This document shows, piece by piece, positions 24,781 to 48,900 of a DNA stretch of 64,000 nt. The notes beneath the pieces were generated by a model. It ran no database searches, had not been told where the DNA came from, and saw nothing but the letters and a program-made list of their open reading frames with translations. Positions within the stretch are counted from its first letter, which is position 1, and each line of letters opens with the position of its first letter. The stretch lies in contig VWRR01000007.1 of NCBI GenBank assembly GCA_013995675.1, forward strand, positions 598,212 to 662,211. Direction: 5' to 3'. This stretch comes from Cyanidiococcus yangmingshanensis (lineage: Eukaryota; Rhodophyta; Bangiophyceae; Cyanidiales; Cyanidiaceae). A program made the position numbers and the translations under genes.

Positions 24781-27114
24781 CTACGGTTTGCTCCACTGAA
24801 TGATGCTCACCCCGTCGCGAATCGGGAGAATGACTTGAGTAACCCGGGCGTCTTCCTGGACGTGCTTGTTGAATTCATGGACTGCTTGCATGAGCTTGGT
24901 GCTGCGAAGGGCGATTCGCTCGGCCCGATCCCCCAGTTCAACGTCCTCTAGGTCGGCATGCCTCTGTTTTCCGTAAAGTGGCCTGAACAGAACATTGTCT
25001 ACAAGAAGCGCTCCATGAGGTGCCAAGAGTCTACGTTCCAAAATGAATTCATAGTACGCAATATACTGTCGCTTATCTGCGTCAAGGTAGATGAGATCAA
25101 AGGGCGGCTCTTCGTGCTCCCACAAAAGCTGTAAAACGTCCAGTGCAGCACCACGATAAAGTCGAATCGGAGCCATGCCCTCAGTTGCGCGTTGAAAGAA
25201 GTGCTCTGCAATGTCCGCAGATTCTGGATCCCGCTCCACAGTGACAACCTGGTTGACATTGTTGGGACCCATTGCCCCAGCAAAACATAACGTGGCATAG
25301 CCCGTAAACGTGCCGATCTCGAGAACTCGTTGGGCGCGCGAGAGCCTGGCCACAGCCTGAAGGAGTGCGCCTTGAACAGGTCCACTCATCATGTGAGCAG
25401 CTTGGGGGAAACTTCTGTACGTTTCGGCCGCGAGTTCTTTGAGAATCGAGGCCTCAGTTCCCCAGGGTGCTGTGCGATTCATGCTTTGCGTGTACCAGTG
25501 AAGCTCATTGGTCGCGCTAGCCAGGGCTAATTCGAGACCTCTCTGACATTCGGAGCTACAACAGCCCGATAGGCGATGTCGACAGTTTGGACATTGAATC
25601 AGGCGCCGATGACACGGCACATGGGCGCAGTGCAGAATATCCTGGGTGGGCCCACCGCACGTCTCACACCGACTCAAGACATCGTTTGTTACAGGCGCCT
25701 TGAGTCTCTCGTCGAAGACATAGACGGATCCTTTGAACTTGGGCTCCCATCCGTGCCTCTTTGCCTCGGCCGCATACGATACAATGCCGCCACCGAGTCT
25801 CTCAACCCGCTGGAAGCCGAGACGACTCTGAAGGTACGCTGCCGCTTTCACACAGCGAATACCGCCAGTGCAAAAGGTGAGTACCCGTCGATCGCGCGGT
25901 TCATTGGCGAGTCGTTCCTCTAGCGCCTTCCAGGTCTCCCGGTAGGTGCGTGTATTCAAGGGACGCGCATCGCCCGCACTCTGAAAAGTGCCCAGCTGGG
26001 TCTCATAGTCATTTCGCACATCGAGAAGGATCGCATGAGGATCTTCCAAGGCTTTCTGCCATTCCGCAGGACTAAGTTCTCGTCCGACTTGCGCCAAGTC
26101 CAATGGCTCTTTCAGGCCATCTGCAACAATTTTCCGTCTGCATCGTATGTGTAGGTTTCGAAATGGTGGTTGCTCGGCAAACTGGGCCGCCGACAGGCGA
26201 TACGGATCCATATTCAGGTAGATGCCGGCAAGTTCAGTCAGATGCGGAGCATCAGGAGCGAAGAGTTGCTGGAAAGCATCCAGGGAGCTCACGGGAACCG
26301 CAACTTGCGCATTGACCCCTTCTGTGGCGATATATATACGTCCTCGGACAGCGAGTGGTTTCAGGTAGAAGCGCAGACGGGAAGCCAACTCCTCCGGCTC
26401 GGAAATCGACACGAATCGATAAAAGGAGAGCATCTGGATGTCATCCGTTAAAACGCTGGATTTGTTCATCGGATAGAATGGAGGCAGCTGTCTCGTTTGC
26501 AGAGTGGTTCCCCCAAAGCGAATACCACGCGGTCGCTGCCGAAACTGTTCGATCAAAGATGGATCGAGCTGGGGGTCAAATCGTAGGTAGAGCGGTACCT
26601 GCATCTGACTAGTTTCTTTCAGTCTCGCGTCTGAGTCAATCACCGCATTCGAGTCTGGTTTGCCGGAAACCAGGACCACACGCAGCGGAGTACCATGTAG
26701 TTTCTTCAATGCGACAAAACGTTCTCGAATGACGGCGTGAAGCTCGTCGAGTTTGGGTTCGGCTCCGGGCACGAACACTCGTCCTTTACGCTCGCTGCTG
26801 GCAACACGCAACGCTGCGCGGAGCTCTGGAGCCAGATAGACCCGAAACACCCATGATGGACCGCTCGGCTGCTTCTCAAGATGCTGTTGCGGCTCCGCTG
26901 CGCGAACTTGATCGGAAGTTTGACCACAAAGGCGCCAAACAACTCGGCGAGTCCTTTCTCCATACCAAAAAGTACCTCTGGTTGCAGCAGCAGCAGCAGC
27001 AGCAGCAAATCGACCCCATTGAAGCCCTTCTCGCAACCGCGTACAGCGGCTTGTCTGTACGAAAAGAGCACGACTTGGAACCGTGCGGACCGGCGTAAAC
27101 CCTCGCAGGAGCAT
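24781..27114 (-). CDS. TrhO (tRNA U34 hydroxylase) fused to TrmR/YrrM-like O-methyltransferase
   Basis: A 777-residue protein. Residues 1-60 are Arg/Ser/Ala-rich with an Ala8 run and look like an organelle transit peptide. Residues 90-200 form an unassigned domain. Residues 225-330 hold the acylphosphatase-like part (SFYRFVSISEPEEL, GRIYIATEGVNAQVAVP). Residues 345-455 are a rhodanese domain with active-site CTGGIRC (Cys415) and LLDVRNDYE. Residues 483-523 are the Cys-rich UPF0176/TrhO tail. Residues 555-777 are a class I SAM methyltransferase with RVLEIGTFTGYATLCFAGAM, LIYLDADKRQY and GALLVDNVLF, as in CCoAOMT-like and TrmR/YrrM enzymes. TrhO makes 5-hydroxyuridine at tRNA position 34 with O2, and TrmR methylates it to 5-methoxyuridine. 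The fusion could carry out both steps, probably in an organelle. The substrate is inferred from the pairing. Confidence 0.85.
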   Translation of the reverse strand: MLLRGFTPVRTVPSRALFVQTSRCTRLREGLQWGRFAAAAAAAATRGTFWYGERTRRVVWRLCGQTSDQVRAAEPQQHLEKQPSGPSWVFRVYLAPELRAALRVASSERKGRVFVPGAEPKLDELHAVIRERFVALKKLHGTPLRVVLVSGKPDSNAVIDSDARLKETSQMQVPLYLRFDPQLDPSLIEQFRQRPRGIRFGGTTLQTRQLPPFYPMNKSSVLTDDIQMLSFYRFVSISEPEELASRLRFYLKPLAVRGRIYIATEGVNAQVAVPVSSLDAFQQLFAPDAPHLTELAGIYLNMDPYRLSAAQFAEQPPFRNLHIRCRRKIVADGLKEPLDLAQVGRELSPAEWQKALEDPHAILLDVRNDYETQLGTFQSAGDARPLNTRTYRETWKALEERLANEPRDRRVLTFCTGGIRCVKAAAYLQSRLGFQRVERLGGGIVSYAAEAKRHGWEPKFKGSVYVFDERLKAPVTNDVLSRCETCGGPTQDILHCAHVPCHRRLIQCPNCRHRLSGCCSSECQRGLELALASATNELHWYTQSMNRTAPWGTEASILKELAAETYRSFPQAAHMMSGPVQGALLQAVARLSRAQRVLEIGTFTGYATLCFAGAMGPNNVNQVVTVERDPESADIAEHFFQRATEGMAPIRLYRGAALDVLQLLWEHEEPPFDLIYLDADKRQYIAYYEFILERRLLAPHGALLVDNVLFRPLYGKQRHADLEDVELGDRAERIALRSTKLMQAVHEFNKHVQEDARVTQVILPIRDGVSIIQWSKP
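26985..27006. repeat. CAG trinucleotide run
   Basis: Seven CAG units plus one base on the plus strand. On the minus strand, in the frame of the TrhO fusion, they encode the Ala run of the putative transit peptide, so length changes would be tolerated. Confidence 0.9.
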
Positions 27115-31939: not shown

Positions 31940-32627
31940 CTTCTCATGAGCGGGCTAGGTTCTCAGTCCAGTTCAATAAAAACCTTCGTTCACCGCTCCA
32001 GACCAGATAGGATGTTCTGCTTCTCCAAGTACAGGTTGGCTCTCTGTTGTATCGGCCCGACCTCTTGTCATTGGGTCTTGGTGGAACACACCTGCGACAG
32101 AGCGTAAAACGCCGTGTTGCAGCGTATCGGCCGCGCCCCGTACTGGCGCCGGCCAAAAGCTTGGTTGTTTCGACCAAGGCGAGGCTGCTGGCTCGAACGA
32201 AGCCTTTCATAGTGCATGCCATCTATGAAAGAGGTCCACGAAGTGAATCTTCTATTCGTTTTCGACCTGGAGTAGCGATCACTTCAGCGAGACTGAGACT
32301 AGGGACTCGCTCGTCGGAGATAGAGCCGAAGATCGGCACTGTCATCTGTCGAGCAGCGTTGCTAACGTGCTTTTGTTCTGCAGCGTTTATTGAAAAAGTC
32401 ACTGTTTCAGTGCGTTCAAACTGACAAAACGTAGAACTTAGCCTTCGGCTGCACGCTGTCTTCTTTGACAGTCTGTGCAGTGACAAAGCTTGCGGCGCTT
32501 CGTTGCGGCCCAGGAAGCCGGTGTTAAGGTTGGAAAGCAAGCAACGAACGTTTCCGCTTCCACATGCTCCATTACGCGCAGCAGTTCAGCAACAGCAACC
32601 TTGTCGGTAAGCACCACACATCCAAAG
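31940..32627. other. divergent promoter region ADA2/THADA
   Basis: About 0.7 kb between the two divergent starts. The THADA frame is open from a TTG at 32490. No other gene or element is recognised. Confidence 0.45.
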
Positions 32628-35600
32628 ATGCGCTTGATCGAGTCGCGAGCTCAGAAATGGAATTCATGTACGGTTGGTGCACTACTGCCTCGGGATCAGG
32701 CAGGCCCGATTCTCGAGTTCCTGTGGACGGCGCTTCACCACCCATGTACTTGTCTCGACCTGAGGGCTGCAGATCAGTCTGTTTACGTAGGGGATCTTCC
32801 AGCACTGCGCATGGAATCTGATGCGCCTCGCACAACGGTGGACTCGCCCACGATGAAGGCCACGCTCACGATGCCTCGTGAAATTCGAACAGCGCTAGAT
32901 CACATGACTCGAGCGCGAACTCCGGCAGAGCTGAACGCGTGTATTCGACAGTTGATGGGTAAAATGATCGAAGTGACAGGAACGAAAATGAATCATAATG
33001 CAATGGTTTCGCGGCAGGCGCAGCTGCATATCATGGAGGCAGTGCTCCTGCTCACTGATTTGCTCCTGTTCGGAACTGTCCAGGTATCGTCATCAGTACA
33101 ATGCACATGGATCAAATGGCTAGATCGTTGGGTGGATGTATGGGTTCAGCGATGGAGTACCGACGCGGCGAGCGTTCCATTGACCGATGCTTTGGCTGAC
33201 TGGCGAGATCCTCGACTGGAATCGTGTGCTGCAAATGGAGCAAGATCCTTTGTCCATCGAGTTTCGTCTCCATCTAGTGAAGCTTGTTTCGTCTTGGCAA
33301 CGCGTGGATCGGTAAACATGCAAGGACAAAATGGTGCGTCAGATTCGCTTGCGAACGAGTTTCATGCAGATGTTGATCGGCTTTATCGCGAGAGACCGAC
33401 TACACGGCTAGCTGCTGACGCTCACCAACGCACAGACTGCGATTCGAATGATTTGGATCCCCGTTCATCGATCGGGGATCGTGATACGGATGGGGAGCGG
33501 CCCGAAAAGGATCCAACGACTCTCGGAAACGACGAGTGCAGCGTAGTCGGCGACGGCTTGTCTCGGGGAGCCCCTGCTAACGACGTTGAGCGTGATGGCG
33601 CTTCGCGAGCTCAAGCGCTGACGCAGGCGGTTTCACTTGCGAAAAACGCCGCACCATTCATGGCGGCTGACTACTCATTCAGGGACTGTTCAAGTGCACA
33701 AAACCCTGTGATGACGCGCACCGAGCAGATTCCAATCCACGGAATACAGCACTCTATCTCTGAGCGGACAGAGATCGAGACTCCAGCGTTGCATGCGGCC
33801 CCCAAACCCTTTTTGACAAGTAACCGAGTAGAATGGCTCCTGGAAACGATCCTTGGTCGTTGCGCGATGAGTGTCTCTGCGGATCCGGATAGAGCCAGTA
33901 CCAAGCGAGCGGTCCGCTTTGGATGCGCAGACTCACTGCGACCAGACCAACTCCGTGGCCTGTACGCACTTACAACCAGCGTTACGTTTCGATCAAGACT
34001 TGCAGAGACGAGCTTTTGGAATCGAACGGTTCCAAGCGTCGTGAACGAAACGCTCCGCTCCTACGTGACGATTCTTGCGATACGTTGTGGACTACACAAG
34101 GGACATACTCAGCCTGCGGCGATACAAGAGCCGCTCGGCTCGCATCCTCCCGAAGCAGTGGACGACATTGTACGTTGTGCCTGTCGACTCATCGCTGACT
34201 TGGACGCCTCGGTCTGTGAAGATGCTCTACTTTCGCTACTCGCTGAAGATGCTGTTCCACGCAGCGTCGTCTGGAATGCCGCAAAGTCGCTAGCATTGCA
34301 CGACCACCAGCAAGGCTTGTGTTCTGAACGTCGCCTGCAGATGAACAGACTAGCCGCATTTAGCCAGTTGGCCTACATCCGTAGCAGGTTTGAATGCGAT
34401 TTGACGGAAAGATCCTCTACTGATCCAGCACCGTTTTCTGTAGTATTGGACGGACCATCCCCTGTTTCAGATAAGGTCGTCGGTCGATCAACACAGTTCG
34501 ATCACGTTTTGCCTCTGTTGGAGAGCATCTACCGAGAGAATCCATGGGACCTTTCGTTACGCTCTGTGGCCGCAGAAACGATGATCATTCTGCTGGAGCA
34601 TGCTCCCCTGGACTGCGTCCCGAATACGCTGCTCGTCAGTATGCTTCTTGAGACAACGAATCTCTCGGATCGATTCTTTCGCCTATATTTTCGACGGATG
34701 CGTCCTGAACTGGAGAAAAAGAGCGCCTTTGTGGAAGCGATCAGACATGTCTGTACCGAGACACCCACTTTGGCGCCCTCCCATTTCCGTCTGCTTCGAA
34801 TGCTCATTCGAGAAGATGGAATTGGCTTTCTGGAGGATATCGCTGATCAAATCATACCGCGTACGCTGCGATCGATGATGATGACGACTTCCCTGCAGCT
34901 CGTCAAGAGCGCGACGGGTTTTTTGGACGCCTGGTACACCACTGAACAACGCTCAAAGACGCGTGGTCGGGTCTCCCCAACCCAGTCTCTACCGCTGCGT
35001 GTGGGCCGATTTCTGCGTCATTATCTGGCTCAAGCACCGAGCCAGCACTATGAGGACGCTTCACGCGTTGCTGTCTCTGTCCTACCGATGCTGCTCAAGC
35101 GCGGTGCTCGAATCGTCACGCTCGTGGACAGTATCTTAACGAATTGCGATGATGCTACACCGCCTGCATTGAGTGACCCCGAGGCGCAAACCGCGTACAA
35201 GTGCTCGATGCTGCTTGTGCTTGCTACGCTGGTGCGAGCGCGTGCGATATCCACCATTGAACTCGTTCCTTGCATTCCGTCGACCACTGACCACAGAGGC
35301 GATGCCCACGATGATGCCTGCTCCCTCAACGTTGCTGTTGACAGTGCATCGGTATCGTTGAATCTCATGCGGTGGGCACTCGCTCGAGCCGAGGAAGCGC
35401 TTACACTGGACGCACTCTACGTGCTCACGCAACCGCAAGCAATGACGACTGCGCCAATCTCCTCTGCGCATATGGACTTGTTGTTGGACTCGATTCCTGC
35501 TCTACTCGTCGGTCGTATATCCCAGAAGGCGTCGCAAATGATATGTCAATTCTTTATCAAGTACATCGGTCCTGCATGTTTTGCCATCAGCCAGCAATCC

Positions 35601-38600
35601 GGATACTGGGCCACGGCTGCTTGCGCGGCGTCTCAGAGCCAGTACAAGGCCGAAGATCATGAAGCCACCGGAAACCAAGCATTCTTGGAATCATGCTCGC
35701 CGGAGAGGCGCACTGTTCACCAGCAAGCTGGGCCTGACAAGAGTCCCCAGGGATATGATCGTAGCGAACATGATTCTCGGGGCAAGTCCGGAGATATCCT
35801 ATGCTTGATGCGAAACAAGCGTGTGGAGTATGCCCAAAGTCTGGGAAACTTTTTAGGTTGTTGGATACGGCTTTTGGCTCGCGAGGTTGGGCCTGGGGTA
35901 AGTCCTGAACGACGTTTTGGAGCCATTGCTCTGCTAGACGCCGTTGGCCCTGAGGTATGGTCCTTCATGCAGCAGTGGTACGCTGAAAATCAGTCACTGT
36001 TGCCAGAGGTATGTGCGGTCGTTCTGGGTTGTTTCTTGGACCCCTATGACCGAGTTCGAAGGCGGGCCTACCTCCTGCTCCTTCGACTCGCAGACTGGAT
36101 GAATGTGCAACCAGTTGTGCCAACGATGATCTCGTTAGGGTCAGTGTTGGTTCATTCATGGACGCGACGTCGTGCCGACGCAGGTGCTTTGCTCCTCCGA
36201 GCAGCCGTCACGCTGACTGACGTGCAAACAAGGGTCTCGCACGCTTCCGTAGCGCACCCAATGGATGTATGCGACCAGCGAATACCTCCAGCGCGCTCGG
36301 TACGATCTGCGTTGCTTCTCGAATTGATGCTTCAGGTGGATCAGCACTCCCTGGTTCATGGGCATTTATTGACGCTTCGTTACCTGATCACGGATTGCAT
36401 TGATCCGTCAACAGGTCGATGGAGGGAAACAGCGAAACTCGGCCTAGAGACCATCGCTCGACTCTGCCTCGGCTGTATGCGTATCATCAACAGGTGCACC
36501 GAGACGCTCCGCGCTGCTGGTGGTGAGGATCCAACGAACCTGGCCTGTTTTGAGGAGCTTGTAGCGAACGGTTTTCTGGATCGATCGACGACCTATGCAA
36601 AGTCGCTAGTTGGAGACGACGCCGAACCAGTGACGGACGATACCGAAGCAGAATTCGGACGTCGCAGCACGCTGCATACCGTCTTCCTCACCGTGAAAGA
36701 AGTTTGCCATATCGCCTCTGCCCTTGTCGGTATCATCTGCAGTGAATGCGCACCCAATGATCGTATCGAGTGGGATTCATCTTCGATGCTCAACGCCTGT
36801 GGTGCGGCTCTGGCGGACACCAAAACTGCATTTGATCTGGTTCGTTTGCTCTGTGATCTGCTGGTCGGTGTGCTGCTCTCCTACCGTCATAATGGTATCT
36901 GTGGCCATGCCTCTGTCTGCTGGAACGACGTCTGCAAGCGTCTAGTGAATGAATCCAACGCGCTATTGCAGCAACTACCGAACCATTACTTGGATGATGT
37001 TCTGGAACGAATTCGTGAACACAGTCTTTATGTCCTTCGTCGCTCTGCCGGCATGCCATTGCTCATTCTAGGTGTTCTTAGCGCAACCGTGGCTGCGCCT
37101 TTGGAGTTGATAGCGAATACCCTGCTCCCAATGTGTCAATCATGGCAGAGCGGAGAAACAATACCCAGTGTGCACGCGATGCATGTCTTGCGAGCGCTTC
37201 TGCAGGACGCGAACCTCACGCAGCGAACCGAGTCGTTGGTGGTAGCATCCTTCATTGAGGCACTGGAGAGCTTCCGATCATCAGCTCCCTGGATGGTGCG
37301 AAATGCCGCCCTGCTGCTCCTGTCGGCATGCATTCAGCGGATGCTGGGTCCGCAAACAATTCCTCCAATGCCTCGTACGCATGAACGGAATCTTGTCTGC
37401 CTCGAGACCGACAACCTCAGGCGAGACGCCCCACCGCCGGAGATGATGGTGGCAGCAGGCTCCACTCGAGCGAATACTCCCTTCGATTTGGAGCCGTTTT
37501 GGAAGGATCCGCTGTTCGTGCCATCTTCGTCGCTTACTATTGATACATTTCTGTCGCGTTATGCTGCCGTCTTGCCGTCTGTGAATCGTACGCTTGCAGA
37601 AGCTGCTGAGAACGACTCGGAGCCCAATGCGGCCGTGTTTCCCCTACTGATCCTGCTTTCGAGTCTGGTTCCATCGGCGAGCCTGGAACGTGTCGCGGAG
37701 AACGCTTTTCGTAACACCGACCGCAACGATATTTTCGGAGACGCCGAAAATCTCCGCGCGGTGAATTGGTCTGGACGACGAGCCCTTTTGGGAACGTTAT
37801 TGGACTCGTTGGAGCGTTTAAGCTGCTCCTCTGACTATTCCGTACGTAGAAAAGCGGCGCTTGCATGGGCTCGAATTCAACAGACCTGCAGTCGAAGCCG
37901 CTCACTGGCCGAAATATGGCCTGAAGTGATTCCTTCAGCGAATGCTCTACAGGGGGCACTTTTGCGGCTGCGCTATTTGCATGCCTGTGGTGCGTTGTCT
38001 CGGGATATTCGCGAGGAGTTTCATCGACGATTCCAACCGTTAGCGTTTGCGAAAGCGTACGGCTTCATGTCGACAATGGAAGCACTTCGCCTGTACCTAG
38101 AGCTGGGCCTCGGAGGCGGGCCCCTGTGGTTGCCCTTTTGTCAGTGGGTGCTCACACATACATCCCAATGGAGCGTTGGTGCGATTATTGTGGCAGCACT
38201 AGCGCTCGAGTGTCTCTGCATCCTGCCTGCAGACGTTTCGTCCAGCACCACCATCTGTGCCGGGCATGCGGGTGTGTCTTCTTTGAACGCAAATGCAGAG
38301 TTTCTTTCTGCTGAAGAAGACCCTGAACCACTGACGGACGAATGTGCCCGATTGCTTTCGTATTTGCACTCGCTGGTTGTGTCGACCGAGGTCCCCGAAC
38401 TGGCTGCGACGGCGATTCGTCTCGCTCAAAAGTTATCACCCGATGTAATACCGACCGACTGGTCTTCAGTGCTTCTCGATTCGTTGCAGCAGCGTGGAAC
38501 CCTCTATGTGCAGGCCAACGCACTGAGGTGGATCCTAGGGTCTGATCGAAAGGACCCCAAGTTCTTCGATGCAGTTTGGTCGCTGTTTCGAACTCGTGCC

Positions 38601-40085
38601 CGCGGCAGCACGGTGCTCGGTGACCTAGCGCTGGAGGCGCTCGGTTGCCTGGTGCATGACCTGGCCTCGGTGCAGTGCTGGATCGATGGTCTCGAGTCTC
38701 TGTTTTCGGAGGACGCTGGTGTCGATGGCGGTGTCGCTGTAGAACGTCGCCTGGCTTGTGCTCGATCCATTCAGAGAGCAGCCGGCAACGATATTTGTAG
38801 GATCAGCATGAATCCCATAGACGCGTGGAGGGATACCCACATTCAAAGACGTCTTGGACGACTGTGCTGGCGACTTCTCGACGACGATGAAGAGATGGTT
38901 CGGAACGAGGCCCGCATCGCAGTCGCGTGCTGCACTGGGCTCTCGCGCTACGGATCGCTTCGTTCTGGATTTCTGGAATGGCATTTGGCAGGGCAACTCG
39001 CCTTTCTATTCGACGAGCCGGAAGAAGAGGTCTCGTACTGTGAGCATCTTGCCGAGTCGGAGAGCGCACCAGGGCCGCTCAATGATCGCGAACATCATGG
39101 AAGAAGCGCTTGTCAGTCGGACAGTGTGGAGGGTTGGATTCAGACGCTTGAGGCGCCCCGTCCGGATGATCGCTGGGAGCAGACCCACCTGCAGGATGAG
39201 CGATGGCGATTACTGTTCGGATCCGAAGAACCTAACGTTGCCCATTCAGAACCATTCGTTACGGAACAGCTCAATCTTTATATGGCATACCTAAGGAAAT
39301 ATCGGAATCCTCGCGACGGTCTTGGCAGCTCGCTCCAAGAGAGCGCGACTGAGGAGCGATTGTCATCTCACGGGCAAGCATCCCTCGTTCGTGATGCTGC
39401 GACCAGGCCTCAAGGCTCTGGACACCAACCAGTATCGTCTTGCTTGAACGGAGCAAGGTATCAAAGACTGGAGCCGCAGCTCGACCGAGCGAACCTGGAT
39501 GATACGGGTCATCGACCTGAAACTGTGACAGTAAGGGGCATTGGTCAGGTATCTCAAGCGGACGCCTTTTGCTGCGCCATCAAAGCACATCTTTTGCGAG
39601 CATTGTCCAATAGCCATGACAAAGAGCCGGACCACCAATCCCTGTTGGAAAATGCCACCAAATCTGCGGCAGTCAAGAGACCATGGACCGGTGGGCGCAT
39701 GCAATGCGCTGCTCATTCTCTGCTCGAACAGCTCGTTCTCGGGCAGTTTCGGGCCATGCTTGCTCCAAGAGCGTTCTGTAAGCGCTATGCGATGGTTGCA
39801 CGTCGCGTATTGGCGCTATCCGGTGCTGCAGAAGATGGGACGAGTCAGATGAGCTGTATGGATCAGGCACCGGCGCTACGATCCCTATGCCAACAGCTCC
39901 GTCCAGACGTTCCAGGGAAACTGGCCGCTGCGGGGCCCCACAGCGTGCTCCAGATACCTTGTGCTTTCGGCAACGGAGCATTTGACGTGCACGAGTCCAA
40001 CGCGTGGCATCGTATGGTTTGGTTTCTTCTTCCGGCATCGTCGACAGCTTGGATCCCCGATGATACCAAGGCTGTATGGAGGTGA
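32628..40085 (+). CDS. THADA: THADA/Trm732-like giant HEAT-repeat protein
   Basis: 2485 residues from the ATG at 32628, larger than human THADA (about 1950) and yeast Trm732. Helical ARM/HEAT-like repeats run through most of the length. The diagnostic DUF2428 block lies near residues 1357-1560. It begins VKEVCHIASALVGIICS and includes SYRHNGICGHA. It continues with LRRSAGMPLLILGVLSATVA, then HAMHVLRALLQDANLT, and ends PWMVRNAALLLLSACIQRMLG. Trm732 is the partner of Trm7/FTSJ1 for 2'-O-methylation of position 32 in the tRNA anticodon loop, so the expected role is as a scaffold for that enzyme. The N-terminal 350 residues are rich in Ser and Asp and poorly conserved. The whole frame is uninterrupted for 7.4 kb, which argues against a high error rate in this part. 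Confidence 0.85.
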   Translation: MRLIESRAQKWNSCTVGALLPRDQAGPILEFLWTALHHPCTCLDLRAADQSVYVGDLPALRMESDAPRTTVDSPTMKATLTMPREIRTALDHMTRARTPAELNACIRQLMGKMIEVTGTKMNHNAMVSRQAQLHIMEAVLLLTDLLLFGTVQVSSSVQCTWIKWLDRWVDVWVQRWSTDAASVPLTDALADWRDPRLESCAANGARSFVHRVSSPSSEACFVLATRGSVNMQGQNGASDSLANEFHADVDRLYRERPTTRLAADAHQRTDCDSNDLDPRSSIGDRDTDGERPEKDPTTLGNDECSVVGDGLSRGAPANDVERDGASRAQALTQAVSLAKNAAPFMAADYSFRDCSSAQNPVMTRTEQIPIHGIQHSISERTEIETPALHAAPKPFLTSNRVEWLLETILGRCAMSVSADPDRASTKRAVRFGCADSLRPDQLRGLYALTTSVTFRSRLAETSFWNRTVPSVVNETLRSYVTILAIRCGLHKGHTQPAAIQEPLGSHPPEAVDDIVRCACRLIADLDASVCEDALLSLLAEDAVPRSVVWNAAKSLALHDHQQGLCSERRLQMNRLAAFSQLAYIRSRFECDLTERSSTDPAPFSVVLDGPSPVSDKVVGRSTQFDHVLPLLESIYRENPWDLSLRSVAAETMIILLEHAPLDCVPNTLLVSMLLETTNLSDRFFRLYFRRMRPELEKKSAFVEAIRHVCTETPTLAPSHFRLLRMLIREDGIGFLEDIADQIIPRTLRSMMMTTSLQLVKSATGFLDAWYTTEQRSKTRGRVSPTQSLPLRVGRFLRHYLAQAPSQHYEDASRVAVSVLPMLLKRGARIVTLVDSILTNCDDATPPALSDPEAQTAYKCSMLLVLATLVRARAISTIELVPCIPSTTDHRGDAHDDACSLNVAVDSASVSLNLMRWALARAEEALTLDALYVLTQPQAMTTAPISSAHMDLLLDSIPALLVGRISQKASQMICQFFIKYIGPACFAISQQSGYWATAACAASQSQYKAEDHEATGNQAFLESCSPERRTVHQQAGPDKSPQGYDRSEHDSRGKSGDILCLMRNKRVEYAQSLGNFLGCWIRLLAREVGPGVSPERRFGAIALLDAVGPEVWSFMQQWYAENQSLLPEVCAVVLGCFLDPYDRVRRRAYLLLLRLADWMNVQPVVPTMISLGSVLVHSWTRRRADAGALLLRAAVTLTDVQTRVSHASVAHPMDVCDQRIPPARSVRSALLLELMLQVDQHSLVHGHLLTLRYLITDCIDPSTGRWRETAKLGLETIARLCLGCMRIINRCTETLRAAGGEDPTNLACFEELVANGFLDRSTTYAKSLVGDDAEPVTDDTEAEFGRRSTLHTVFLTVKEVCHIASALVGIICSECAPNDRIEWDSSSMLNACGAALADTKTAFDLVRLLCDLLVGVLLSYRHNGICGHASVCWNDVCKRLVNESNALLQQLPNHYLDDVLERIREHSLYVLRRSAGMPLLILGVLSATVAAPLELIANTLLPMCQSWQSGETIPSVHAMHVLRALLQDANLTQRTESLVVASFIEALESFRSSAPWMVRNAALLLLSACIQRMLGPQTIPPMPRTHERNLVCLETDNLRRDAPPPEMMVAAGSTRANTPFDLEPFWKDPLFVPSSSLTIDTFLSRYAAVLPSVNRTLAEAAENDSEPNAAVFPLLILLSSLVPSASLERVAENAFRNTDRNDIFGDAENLRAVNWSGRRALLGTLLDSLERLSCSSDYSVRRKAALAWARIQQTCSRSRSLAEIWPEVIPSANALQGALLRLRYLHACGALSRDIREEFHRRFQPLAFAKAYGFMSTMEALRLYLELGLGGGPLWLPFCQWVLTHTSQWSVGAIIVAALALECLCILPADVSSSTTICAGHAGVSSLNANAEFLSAEEDPEPLTDECARLLSYLHSLVVSTEVPELAATAIRLAQKLSPDVIPTDWSSVLLDSLQQRGTLYVQANALRWILGSDRKDPKFFDAVWSLFRTRARGSTVLGDLALEALGCLVHDLASVQCWIDGLESLFSEDAGVDGGVAVERRLACARSIQRAAGNDICRISMNPIDAWRDTHIQRRLGRLCWRLLDDDEEMVRNEARIAVACCTGLSRYGSLRSGFLEWHLAGQLAFLFDEPEEEVSYCEHLAESESAPGPLNDREHHGRSACQSDSVEGWIQTLEAPRPDDRWEQTHLQDERWRLLFGSEEPNVAHSEPFVTEQLNLYMAYLRKYRNPRDGLGSSLQESATEERLSSHGQASLVRDAATRPQGSGHQPVSSCLNGARYQRLEPQLDRANLDDTGHRPETVTVRGIGQVSQADAFCCAIKAHLLRALSNSHDKEPDHQSLLENATKSAAVKRPWTGGRMQCAAHSLLEQLVLGQFRAMLAPRAFCKRYAMVARRVLALSGAAEDGTSQMSCMDQAPALRSLCQQLRPDVPGKLAAAGPHSVLQIPCAFGNGAFDVHESNAWHRMVWFLLPASSTAWIPDDTKAVWR

Positions 40086-47517: not shown

Positions 47518-48900
47518 ATGAGCACTTACCTAGGAGGTATGCTATTGGGAGGTATTTTACGTCGTGCTGGCCATTCCTGGTCTTCGGGAACGCACTTGTT
47601 CACACGCTTGTCGACGCTGGACCTGGTTCCAACCAGGGGTCCCAGCGATGCACTCCGCTGCTTGAACGGGCTAGCGCAACGCCGTCACTTGGTTGCAGAG
47701 GCTGCGGCAGCGAGCGCTGTGAAACGCAAGCCGCATTTGAATGTCGGTGGTATGGGACACGTGGATCATGGGAAGACGACGCTGGCTGCGGCGATCACCA
47801 AAGTTCTCGCCGAGTCTGGTGGAGCGAAATTCACTGCCTATGAAGAGATTGATAAAGCGCCAGAAGAGCGAGCACGTGGAATTACGATCAATGCTTCTCA
47901 TCTGAAGTATGAGACGCCATCTCGGTCGTACGCACATGTAGATTGCCCGGGACATCGAGATTTTGTGAAGAATTTCATCACTGGCGCTGCCCAGGTAGAT
48001 ACGGCGATACTCGTTGTGAGTGGCGCTGACGGGCCCCAACCTCAAACGCAGGAGCACGTCCTTCTTTCGAAACAGGTAGGTGTTCCGAACTTTGTTGTCT
48101 ACCTCAACAAGTGTGATATGGTTGACGACTCTGAACTCCTGGATCTGGTTGAACTCGAGGTGCGCGAACTGCTGAGCAAGTACGAATACGATGGCGATAA
48201 CGTGCCAATCGTTCGAGGCTCGGCGCTGAAAGCGCTACAGGGAGACCAAGGAGAACTCGGGTACGGATCAATACACAAACTGCTGGAGATTCTTGATCAG
48301 GTGCCTATTCCCAAACGTGATCTCGAGAAAGCGTTTCTGATGCCTATTGAGGATAGTTTTAGCATCACTGGTCGTGGAACGGTCGTAACTGGGCGCGTCG
48401 AAACAGGGATTCTTCGTCCCGGCGATGAAATTGAAATTGTCGGTCTGCGTCCACCAGAGGTGGCACCGATGCGCACGATTGTGACGGGTATCGAGACCTT
48501 CAAGCAGACGCTCCCCTATGCAGAGGCTGGCGAAAATGTTGGTTGCTTGCTGCGCGGCGTGAAGCGCGAGGACGTTCTCCGTGGCCAGGTTCTAGCAAAG
48601 CCGGGGACGGCAAAGGCACATCGACAATTTGAGGCAGATGTTTACATTCTCACAGAAGAGGAAGGAGGGCGGCACACGCCATTCTTCAGCAATTATCGGC
48701 CCCAGTTCTTTGTGCGAACGGCAGATGTTACAGGCCGCTTCATACTACCACCAGATGTAGAGATGTGCATGCCTGGAGATCACGTGCGATGTTCCGTTGA
48801 GCTGATCTATCCGGTTGCTCTGCAAGAAGGTCTTCGGTTCGCCGTTCGCGAAGGTGGTAAAACGGTCGGCGCCGGTTTGGTTACGAAAATTATCGAGTAA
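47518..48900 (+). CDS. TUFM: mitochondrial elongation factor Tu
   Basis: 460 residues. EF-Tu delivers aminoacyl-tRNA to the mitochondrial ribosome using GTP. Residues 1-70 form a basic presequence without acidic clusters. The G domain has GHVDHGKTT (G1), the RGITIN effector loop (G2), DCPGH (G3) and LNKCDM (G4), and SAL serves as G5. Domains 2 and 3 are complete ([21 protein letters not shown]-type [21 protein letters not shown], and [16 protein letters not shown]). The G1 region reads [11 protein letters not shown] instead of the usual NVGTIGHVDHG. It is nuclear-encoded here; the plastid EF-Tu of red algae is normally plastid-encoded, so a mitochondrial location is preferred. The ATG begins the frame. 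Confidence 0.93.

Follow-up and report, generated by a model that had tools for sequence, protein, structure and literature searches.

The red alga Cyanidiococcus yangmingshanensis possesses a gene which encodes, in one uninterrupted reading frame, a complete TrhO followed by a SAM-dependent O-methyltransferase. The product is probably a bifunctional enzyme catalysing the two steps of mo5U34 synthesis, most likely on plastid tRNAs. In the proposed mechanism, the TrhO half would hydroxylate C5 of U34 with O2 to yield ho5U, and the C-terminal O-methyltransferase would move the methyl group of SAM onto ho5U, giving mo5U34. The substrates would most likely be the plastid UNN four-box tRNAs (Ala, Pro, Ser, Thr and Val, a set which we assume to be the same as in bacteria), where mo5U34 could widen decoding when one tRNA must read several codons.

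Gene layout and distribution of the fusion

The ORF is located on the minus strand of the window (the whole stretch of 64,000 nucleotides that was analysed), from 27114 down to 24781, and comprises 777 codons with no internal stop. The first-pass annotation of this DNA had correctly given the coordinates and the unbroken frame and left the strand unstated; it had read there a rhodanese/UPF0176 module with a CTGGIRC loop (Cys415) followed by a SAM methyltransferase, and both the order of the Pfam domains and the sequence agree with this description. The Pfam matches are far above chance and, with the structure model, define the following features:

24781..27114, minus strand: whole ORF, TrhO-methyltransferase fusion, 777 aa (translation; single genome match)
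26863..27114, minus strand: disordered Arg-rich leader, residues 1-84, possible organelle presequence (pLDDT <50; composition)
26515..26862, minus strand: predicted beta-grasp (ubiquitin-like, PB1-like) domain, residues 85-200 (structure model and Foldseek)
26128..26436, minus strand: UPF0176_N acylphosphatase-like domain, residues 227-329 (Pfam E 3e-20)
25768..26073, minus strand: rhodanese domain, residues 348-449 (Pfam Rhodanese E 1e-7)
25852..25872, minus strand: CTGGIRC active loop, residues 415-421, Cys415 corresponding to E. coli Cys200 (alignment)
25543..25734, minus strand: Rhodanese_C and Cys-rich tail, residues 461-524 (Pfam E 2e-16)
25456..25542, minus strand: linker, residues 525-553, mostly helical (structure model)
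24799..25455, minus strand: Methyltransf_3, class I SAM-dependent O-methyltransferase, residues 554-772 (Pfam E 2.5e-35)
25285..25326, minus strand: presumed SAM motif VLEIGTFTGYATLC, residues 597-610 (sequence)
25072..25083, minus strand: DADK, residues 678-681; DAAK in the TrmR group (alignment)
24994..24999, minus strand: DN, residues 706-707, with D678 the expected metal ligands (alignment)

The complete TrhO thus corresponds to residues 227-524. The whole ORF was matched once in the genome (12.07 Mb, 20 contigs), and a separate C. yangmingshanensis record contains a 777-aa protein with 99% identity to it over the entire length. UPF0176_N and Methyltransf_3 were found together in one chain in at least 33 database proteins, namely 11 of the 13 proteins of the first listing (P0002-P0012) and 22 among the best 120 of 368 (P0135-P0156). 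The named carriers are Cyanidiococcus, Agarophyton chilense, Gracilaria domingensis, Gracilariopsis chorda, Nitzschia sp. and Ochromonadaceae sp. CCMP2298, so that the lineages represented among the named matches are red algae, one diatom and one further ochrophyte. The search of other red algae for the same fusion, which the first-pass annotation had suggested, was therefore successful in Agarophyton, Gracilaria and Gracilariopsis; no protein of Cyanidioschyzon merolae or Galdieria occurred among the named matches listed (13, and the best 120 of 368). P0142, of MMETSP source, is a complete transcript ORF, and one mRNA therefore encodes both halves in that organism. The public name of the G. 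domingensis protein (P0010), "SAM-dependent O-methyltransferase", omits the TrhO half, and the fusion is for this reason under-annotated.

Elsewhere in the window, a 2531-codon ORF on the plus strand (32490-40085), separated from the fusion by about 5 kb, carries a THADA/TRM732 domain (PF10350, E 3e-35) and is presumably a homologue of this tRNA methylation partner. EF-Tu with its three domains is encoded at 47518-48900, also on the plus strand. The Rfam and tRNA scans of the 64-kb window gave no matches.

The two catalytic halves

The TrhO half scored 189.8 bits against the NCBIfam TrhO equivalog NF001133 (cut-off 170), the profile search of the rhodanese/UPF0176 half proposed at the outset being thus in favour of TrhO. 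UPF0176_N, rhodanese and Rhodanese_C are present in TrhO order, and sequence and fold comparisons with the PDB both ranked first the tRNA-Ala complex of B. subtilis TrhO, 9j5o (TMt 0.81). In the part of Sakai et al. (PMC6599085) dealing with E. coli TrhO mutants, C200, T201, G203 and R205 are essential, R114A gives no rescue and K112A hardly any. These six needed residues are all kept in the ORF, K112 being replaced conservatively by Arg; R324 and R326 occupy the positions of K112 and R114 in the alignment. C200, T201, G203 and R205 are identical in the 23 fusions aligned (out of 34, the Cyanidiococcus ORF included), in which the K112 position is occupied by Arg in 19 cases and by Lys in 4. 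The motif of the loop, CTGG(I/V)RC, was detected in 33 of the 34 fusions, the exception, P0012, being a model without that stretch. In an 11-row alignment, C483, C486, C496, C501, C508, C511, C519 and C523 are invariant, and the Cys-rich tail is common to the fusion and to Bacteroidota TrhO.

A TrhO tree was built on fusion, bacterial and partial eukaryote rows, TSTD2 and the plant relatives not being among them; part of the rows had been shortened, either at the Cys-rich tail or by a trimming script. The TrhO halves of the fusions and three partial eukaryote models formed one clade (100/98), whose neighbours are the TrhO of Bacteroidota and of E. coli (98/96). A clade restricted to the 23 fusions was rejected (p 2e-9) because P0157, P0158 and P0248, which have no methyltransferase domain, are nested within it; either truncated gene models or losses could account for them. 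The TrhO identity given by the first-pass annotation is in agreement with the equivalog score, the 9j5o match and the needed residues, and these sequence data strongly support that the fusion protein would carry out the TrhO hydroxylation step.

In the methyltransferase half, the SAM motif, DADK and DN are all present, and DN and D678 should be metal ligands if, as we assume, their role is that known in CCoAOMT. The PDB search gave 85 bits with SynOMT (3cbg), 77 with SafC (5lhm), 65 with COMTD1 (2avd), 63 with PFOMT (3c3y) and 62 with CsFAOMT; B. subtilis TrmR (5zw3) reached 48 bits, 8k1f 43, and the sorghum and alfalfa CCoAOMT 42-43. The TrmR set of the methyltransferase tree consisted of 5zw3, 2gpy, 3ntv, 8k1f and a Listeria gene flanked by mltG and udk, the activity being demonstrated for B. 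subtilis 5zw3, the name of 8k1f being that given by its depositors and the three others being assigned by kinship. The free eukaryotic rows were one Tetraparma protein and five taken as eukaryotic; 7cvu (129 aa), the gammaproteobacterial row L110 and the distant Bacteroidota rows L112 and L113 were dropped. The TrmR rows formed their own group (99/98) with the fused methyltransferases outside, and all five have DAAK versus DADK in the fusion, a motif defined from these same five sequences. The fused methyltransferases grouped with free eukaryote-like copies and with fungal proteins of Zychaea, Phascolomyces and Chlamydoabsidia. Three free fungal O-methyltransferases (P0016, P0023 and P0031) cluster with the cyanidiophyte fused domains (96/86). 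In the best tree, the fused domains are placed outside the CCoAOMT/SynOMT group (85/96). The AU test rejected none of three deep placements, with TrmR (p 0.59), with the OMT/CCoAOMT set (p 0.46) or with Bacteroidota (p 0.54), nor did it reject a clade made up solely of the methyltransferases of the fusions (p 0.14). As no deep placement is rejected, the sequence proves neither a TrmR nor a phenolic kinship. The first-pass annotation had called this half TrmR-like, to be abandoned if it clustered with phenolic or catechol OMTs and not with TrmR. As a function, TrmR-like remains plausible; as a description of the sequence it is not demonstrated, the domain being outside the TrmR group, with lower bits for TrmR than for SynOMT, SafC and COMTD1 and DADK in place of DAAK, and on the clustering itself the AU test rejects neither kinship.

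The Cyanidiococcus genome was then considered as a whole. Family searches, carried out exon by exon on the best candidates only, so that a split gene could escape, gave one TrhO match and one OMT3 match, both in the fusion ORF, and no match to PF08003 or PF01136 in the 12.07 Mb. We take PF08003 to be the CmoB family and PF01136 to be U32, the family of the hydroxylase TrhP. With a single OMT3 and no match to these two families, the fused domain would therefore be the sole candidate, among methyltransferases of these kinds in the genome, for acting on the ho5U made by the fused TrhO.

Seven of the eight named bacterial rows among the 120 listed of 4570 methyltransferase matches belong to Bacteroidota. 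Named Bacteroidota isolates chosen for their TrhO contained exactly one strong OMT3 in 24 cases out of 24 (155-198 bits), and a strong OMT3 was present in three of the four gammaproteobacteria examined. In a sample of 118 genomes from the phylum of Flavobacterium limicola, a strong OMT3 (E up to 1e-25) was detected in 59 of the 67 genomes with TrhO versus 10 of the 51 without it (Fisher 4e-14, kinship ignored). U32 runs opposite, OMT3 occurring in 25 of 60 genomes with U32 versus 44 of 58 without. Its association with TrhO and its inverse relation to U32, both uncorrected for kinship, suggest that the strong OMT3 of Bacteroidota is the ho5U methyltransferase there.

Gene neighbourhood was also analysed. 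No OMT3 gene was found near bacterial trhO in the 80 best loci (flanks of at most 10 kb; the locus was at least 20 kb long in 47 cases and 3.6 kb in the shortest), the same seven queries recovering OMT3 in 24 of 24 known loci as positive control. Operon evidence for a TrhO-OMT3 pairing was dropped in view of this result.

N-terminal region, compartment and alternative readings

The region of about residues 90-200, left unassigned by the first-pass annotation, matched no Pfam family above cut-off. Modelled alone, this domain reached a pLDDT of 89.4, and the top Foldseek match was the PB1 domain of Bem1 (2kfk; TMt 0.74, prob 0.99, E 0.1), accompanied by other beta-grasp proteins (molybdopterin synthase small subunit, UBX and more), none with E <0.001. 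A beta-grasp fold is now suggested by the model, in which residues 85-200 look PB1-like; such a domain could have a docking role.

The leader (residues 1-84) contains 13 Arg, 1 Lys and 5 acidic residues and is without signal peptide. A leader pattern in which a small-residue-Phe motif comes after a hydrophobic stretch, as in diatom plastid leaders, was observed in 9 of 21 further fusions (P0135-P0155), those of Nitzschia and Ochromonadaceae being among the nine, versus 1.1 expected from shuffles, with a pattern defined after the sequences were seen and on N-termini of which some are possibly incomplete. In the controls, the pattern was found in none of the 10 fusions from red algae or of red-like type (0.4 expected), in 1 of 90 bacterial TrhO and in 1 of 120 free methyltransferases. 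Two of the 21, P0135 and P0145, cluster in either tree with the copies of Gracilaria type. These leaders hint at plastid tRNAs as the target. Targeting to an organelle, proposed by the first-pass annotation, is therefore hinted at in the diatom-like and ochrophyte relatives, whereas the red algal leaders do not display the signal-peptide pattern. As primary red plastids do not need a signal peptide, both plastid and mitochondrion are possible for the red algal copies. Oomycetes have no plastid. Since they carry the fusion, according to the sentence of Sakai et al. on such genes (PMC6599085), plastid action would not be universal. These oomycete proteins, together with the Arg-rich, Lys-poor leader of Cyanidiococcus, would be compatible with a two-step U34 enzyme acting on mitochondrial or cytosolic tRNAs in place of plastid ones, a variant which we count within the main reading and consider rather unlikely in view of the plastid-type leaders of the nine further fusions.

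Three observations lead us to infer the methyl step: the fusion itself, the single TrhO and single OMT3 of a genome without CmoB or U32 match, and the co-occurrence in Bacteroidota. The mo5U34 synthase reading is supported by the equivalog score, the 9j5o match, the kept residues and the single TrhO clade, and its plastid side by the leaders described above. It is also supported by the same architecture in red algae, diatom, ochrophyte and P0142, and in Phytophthora and Phaeodactylum as far as stated in PMC6599085. It is weakened by a methyltransferase which lies outside the TrmR group and has better bits with other OMT3s, some of them plant phenolic enzymes, by the 80 loci without neighbouring OMT3 and by the 8 of 67 TrhO genomes without strong OMT3.

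The other explanations differ in what they leave of this reading. An assembly chimera or a pair of adjacent genes can be practically dismissed because of the separate record, of the 33 listed homologues with both domains, which come from several sources and include a complete transcript ORF, and of the 777 codons without stop. Rhodanese chemistry in general is sulfur transfer, and older database names indeed read "sulfurtransferase"; that this half is a sulfurtransferase and not a hydroxylase is nevertheless very improbable, given the full TrhO architecture with UPF0176_N and the Cys-rich tail, the equivalog score and the needed residues. It is also conceivable that the TrhO half makes ho5U34 while the methyltransferase acts elsewhere, on a catechol, a small molecule or another RNA site, the fusion serving only to share targeting or regulation. 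The higher bits with SynOMT, SafC, COMTD1, PFOMT and CsFAOMT than with TrmR, the DADK motif and the AU result for the OMT/CCoAOMT set are compatible with such a substrate, but the fusion is kept from cyanidiophytes to diatom and ochrophyte, its free bacterial relatives are found together with TrhO, grouping with TrmR is not rejected by the AU test either and the alfalfa and sorghum CCoAOMT (43 and 42 bits) score no higher than TrmR; we therefore judge it unlikely.

The mo5U34 synthase reading may be carried further. A plastid enzyme would have been inherited across the red-type plastid lineages, its methyltransferase would represent a third, DADK-type ho5U34 lineage apart from Bacillota TrmR and CmoB, and the PB1-like domain would dock a partner or the tRNA. 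This extended proposal is tentative, our doubts slightly exceeding our confidence; if true, no eukaryotic route to mo5U would have been defined earlier. In plastids, few tRNAs serve to read the four-codon boxes, and the fusion bears on how this is done as well as on a lineage of methyltransferases which possibly plays the part of TrmR in Bacteroidota. With both steps in one gene, single in a tiny algal genome, the xo5U modification suggested in eukaryotes from TrhO homologues, as worded by Sakai et al. (PMC6599085), becomes directly testable, the Cyanidiophyceae being called genetically tractable in the relevant part of a 2026 paper (PMC13353863).

Comparison with known systems

The first-pass annotation knew of no described fusion of this kind. 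Fusions of trhO (yceA) with trmR had in fact been reported in Phytophthora sojae, P. ramorum and Phaeodactylum tricornutum by Sakai et al. in 2019 (PMC6599085). The search of open-licence papers recognised no further description, in red algae or elsewhere; the fusion is of a known kind, extended here to red algae. As to the nucleoside, the portion of a coconut tRNA survey devoted to it mentions ho5U alongside two TrhO homologues from plants (PMC10298058), and a 2020 review, in its entry on ho5U, assigns it to bacteria and eukaryotes (PMC7694415).

The Cyanidiococcus protein shares UPF0176_N, rhodanese, Rhodanese_C, the CTGGIR-type loop and the tRNA basic residues with the TrhO of E. coli and B. 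subtilis (YceA, UPF0176). The E. coli enzyme (350 aa), however, stands alone and lacks the leader, the predicted beta-grasp domain and the methyltransferase. With the TrmR (YrrM) group, the fusion has in common the Methyltransf_3 fold and the DN motif, most red algal copies reading DNVLFR, which resembles DNVLF(K/R) in TrmR; TrmR differs by DAAK, forms a separate group and is less similar to the fusion than several other OMT3s. The single-copy OMT3 of Bacteroidota, which co-occurs with TrhO, is mostly of the DADK type like the fusion, but these are free proteins, none near trhO in the 80 loci, with DNVLW in most aligned rows.

Among eukaryotic relatives of TrhO, human TSTD2 and plant STR6/STR7 are known (PMC10135228, PMC10298058); TSTD2, compared here by description, is without methyltransferase and of unreported function in the account given of it (PMC10135228). 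The stramenopile genes of Sakai et al. likewise join TrhO and an O-methyltransferase in one protein, and are cited there, in one sentence and one figure legend which term them bacterial, as fusion evidence for the role of TrhO (PMC6599085). Set beside that description, the Cyanidiococcus gene is that of a primary red alga and adds an N-terminal domain, beta-grasp by its model, and a leader.
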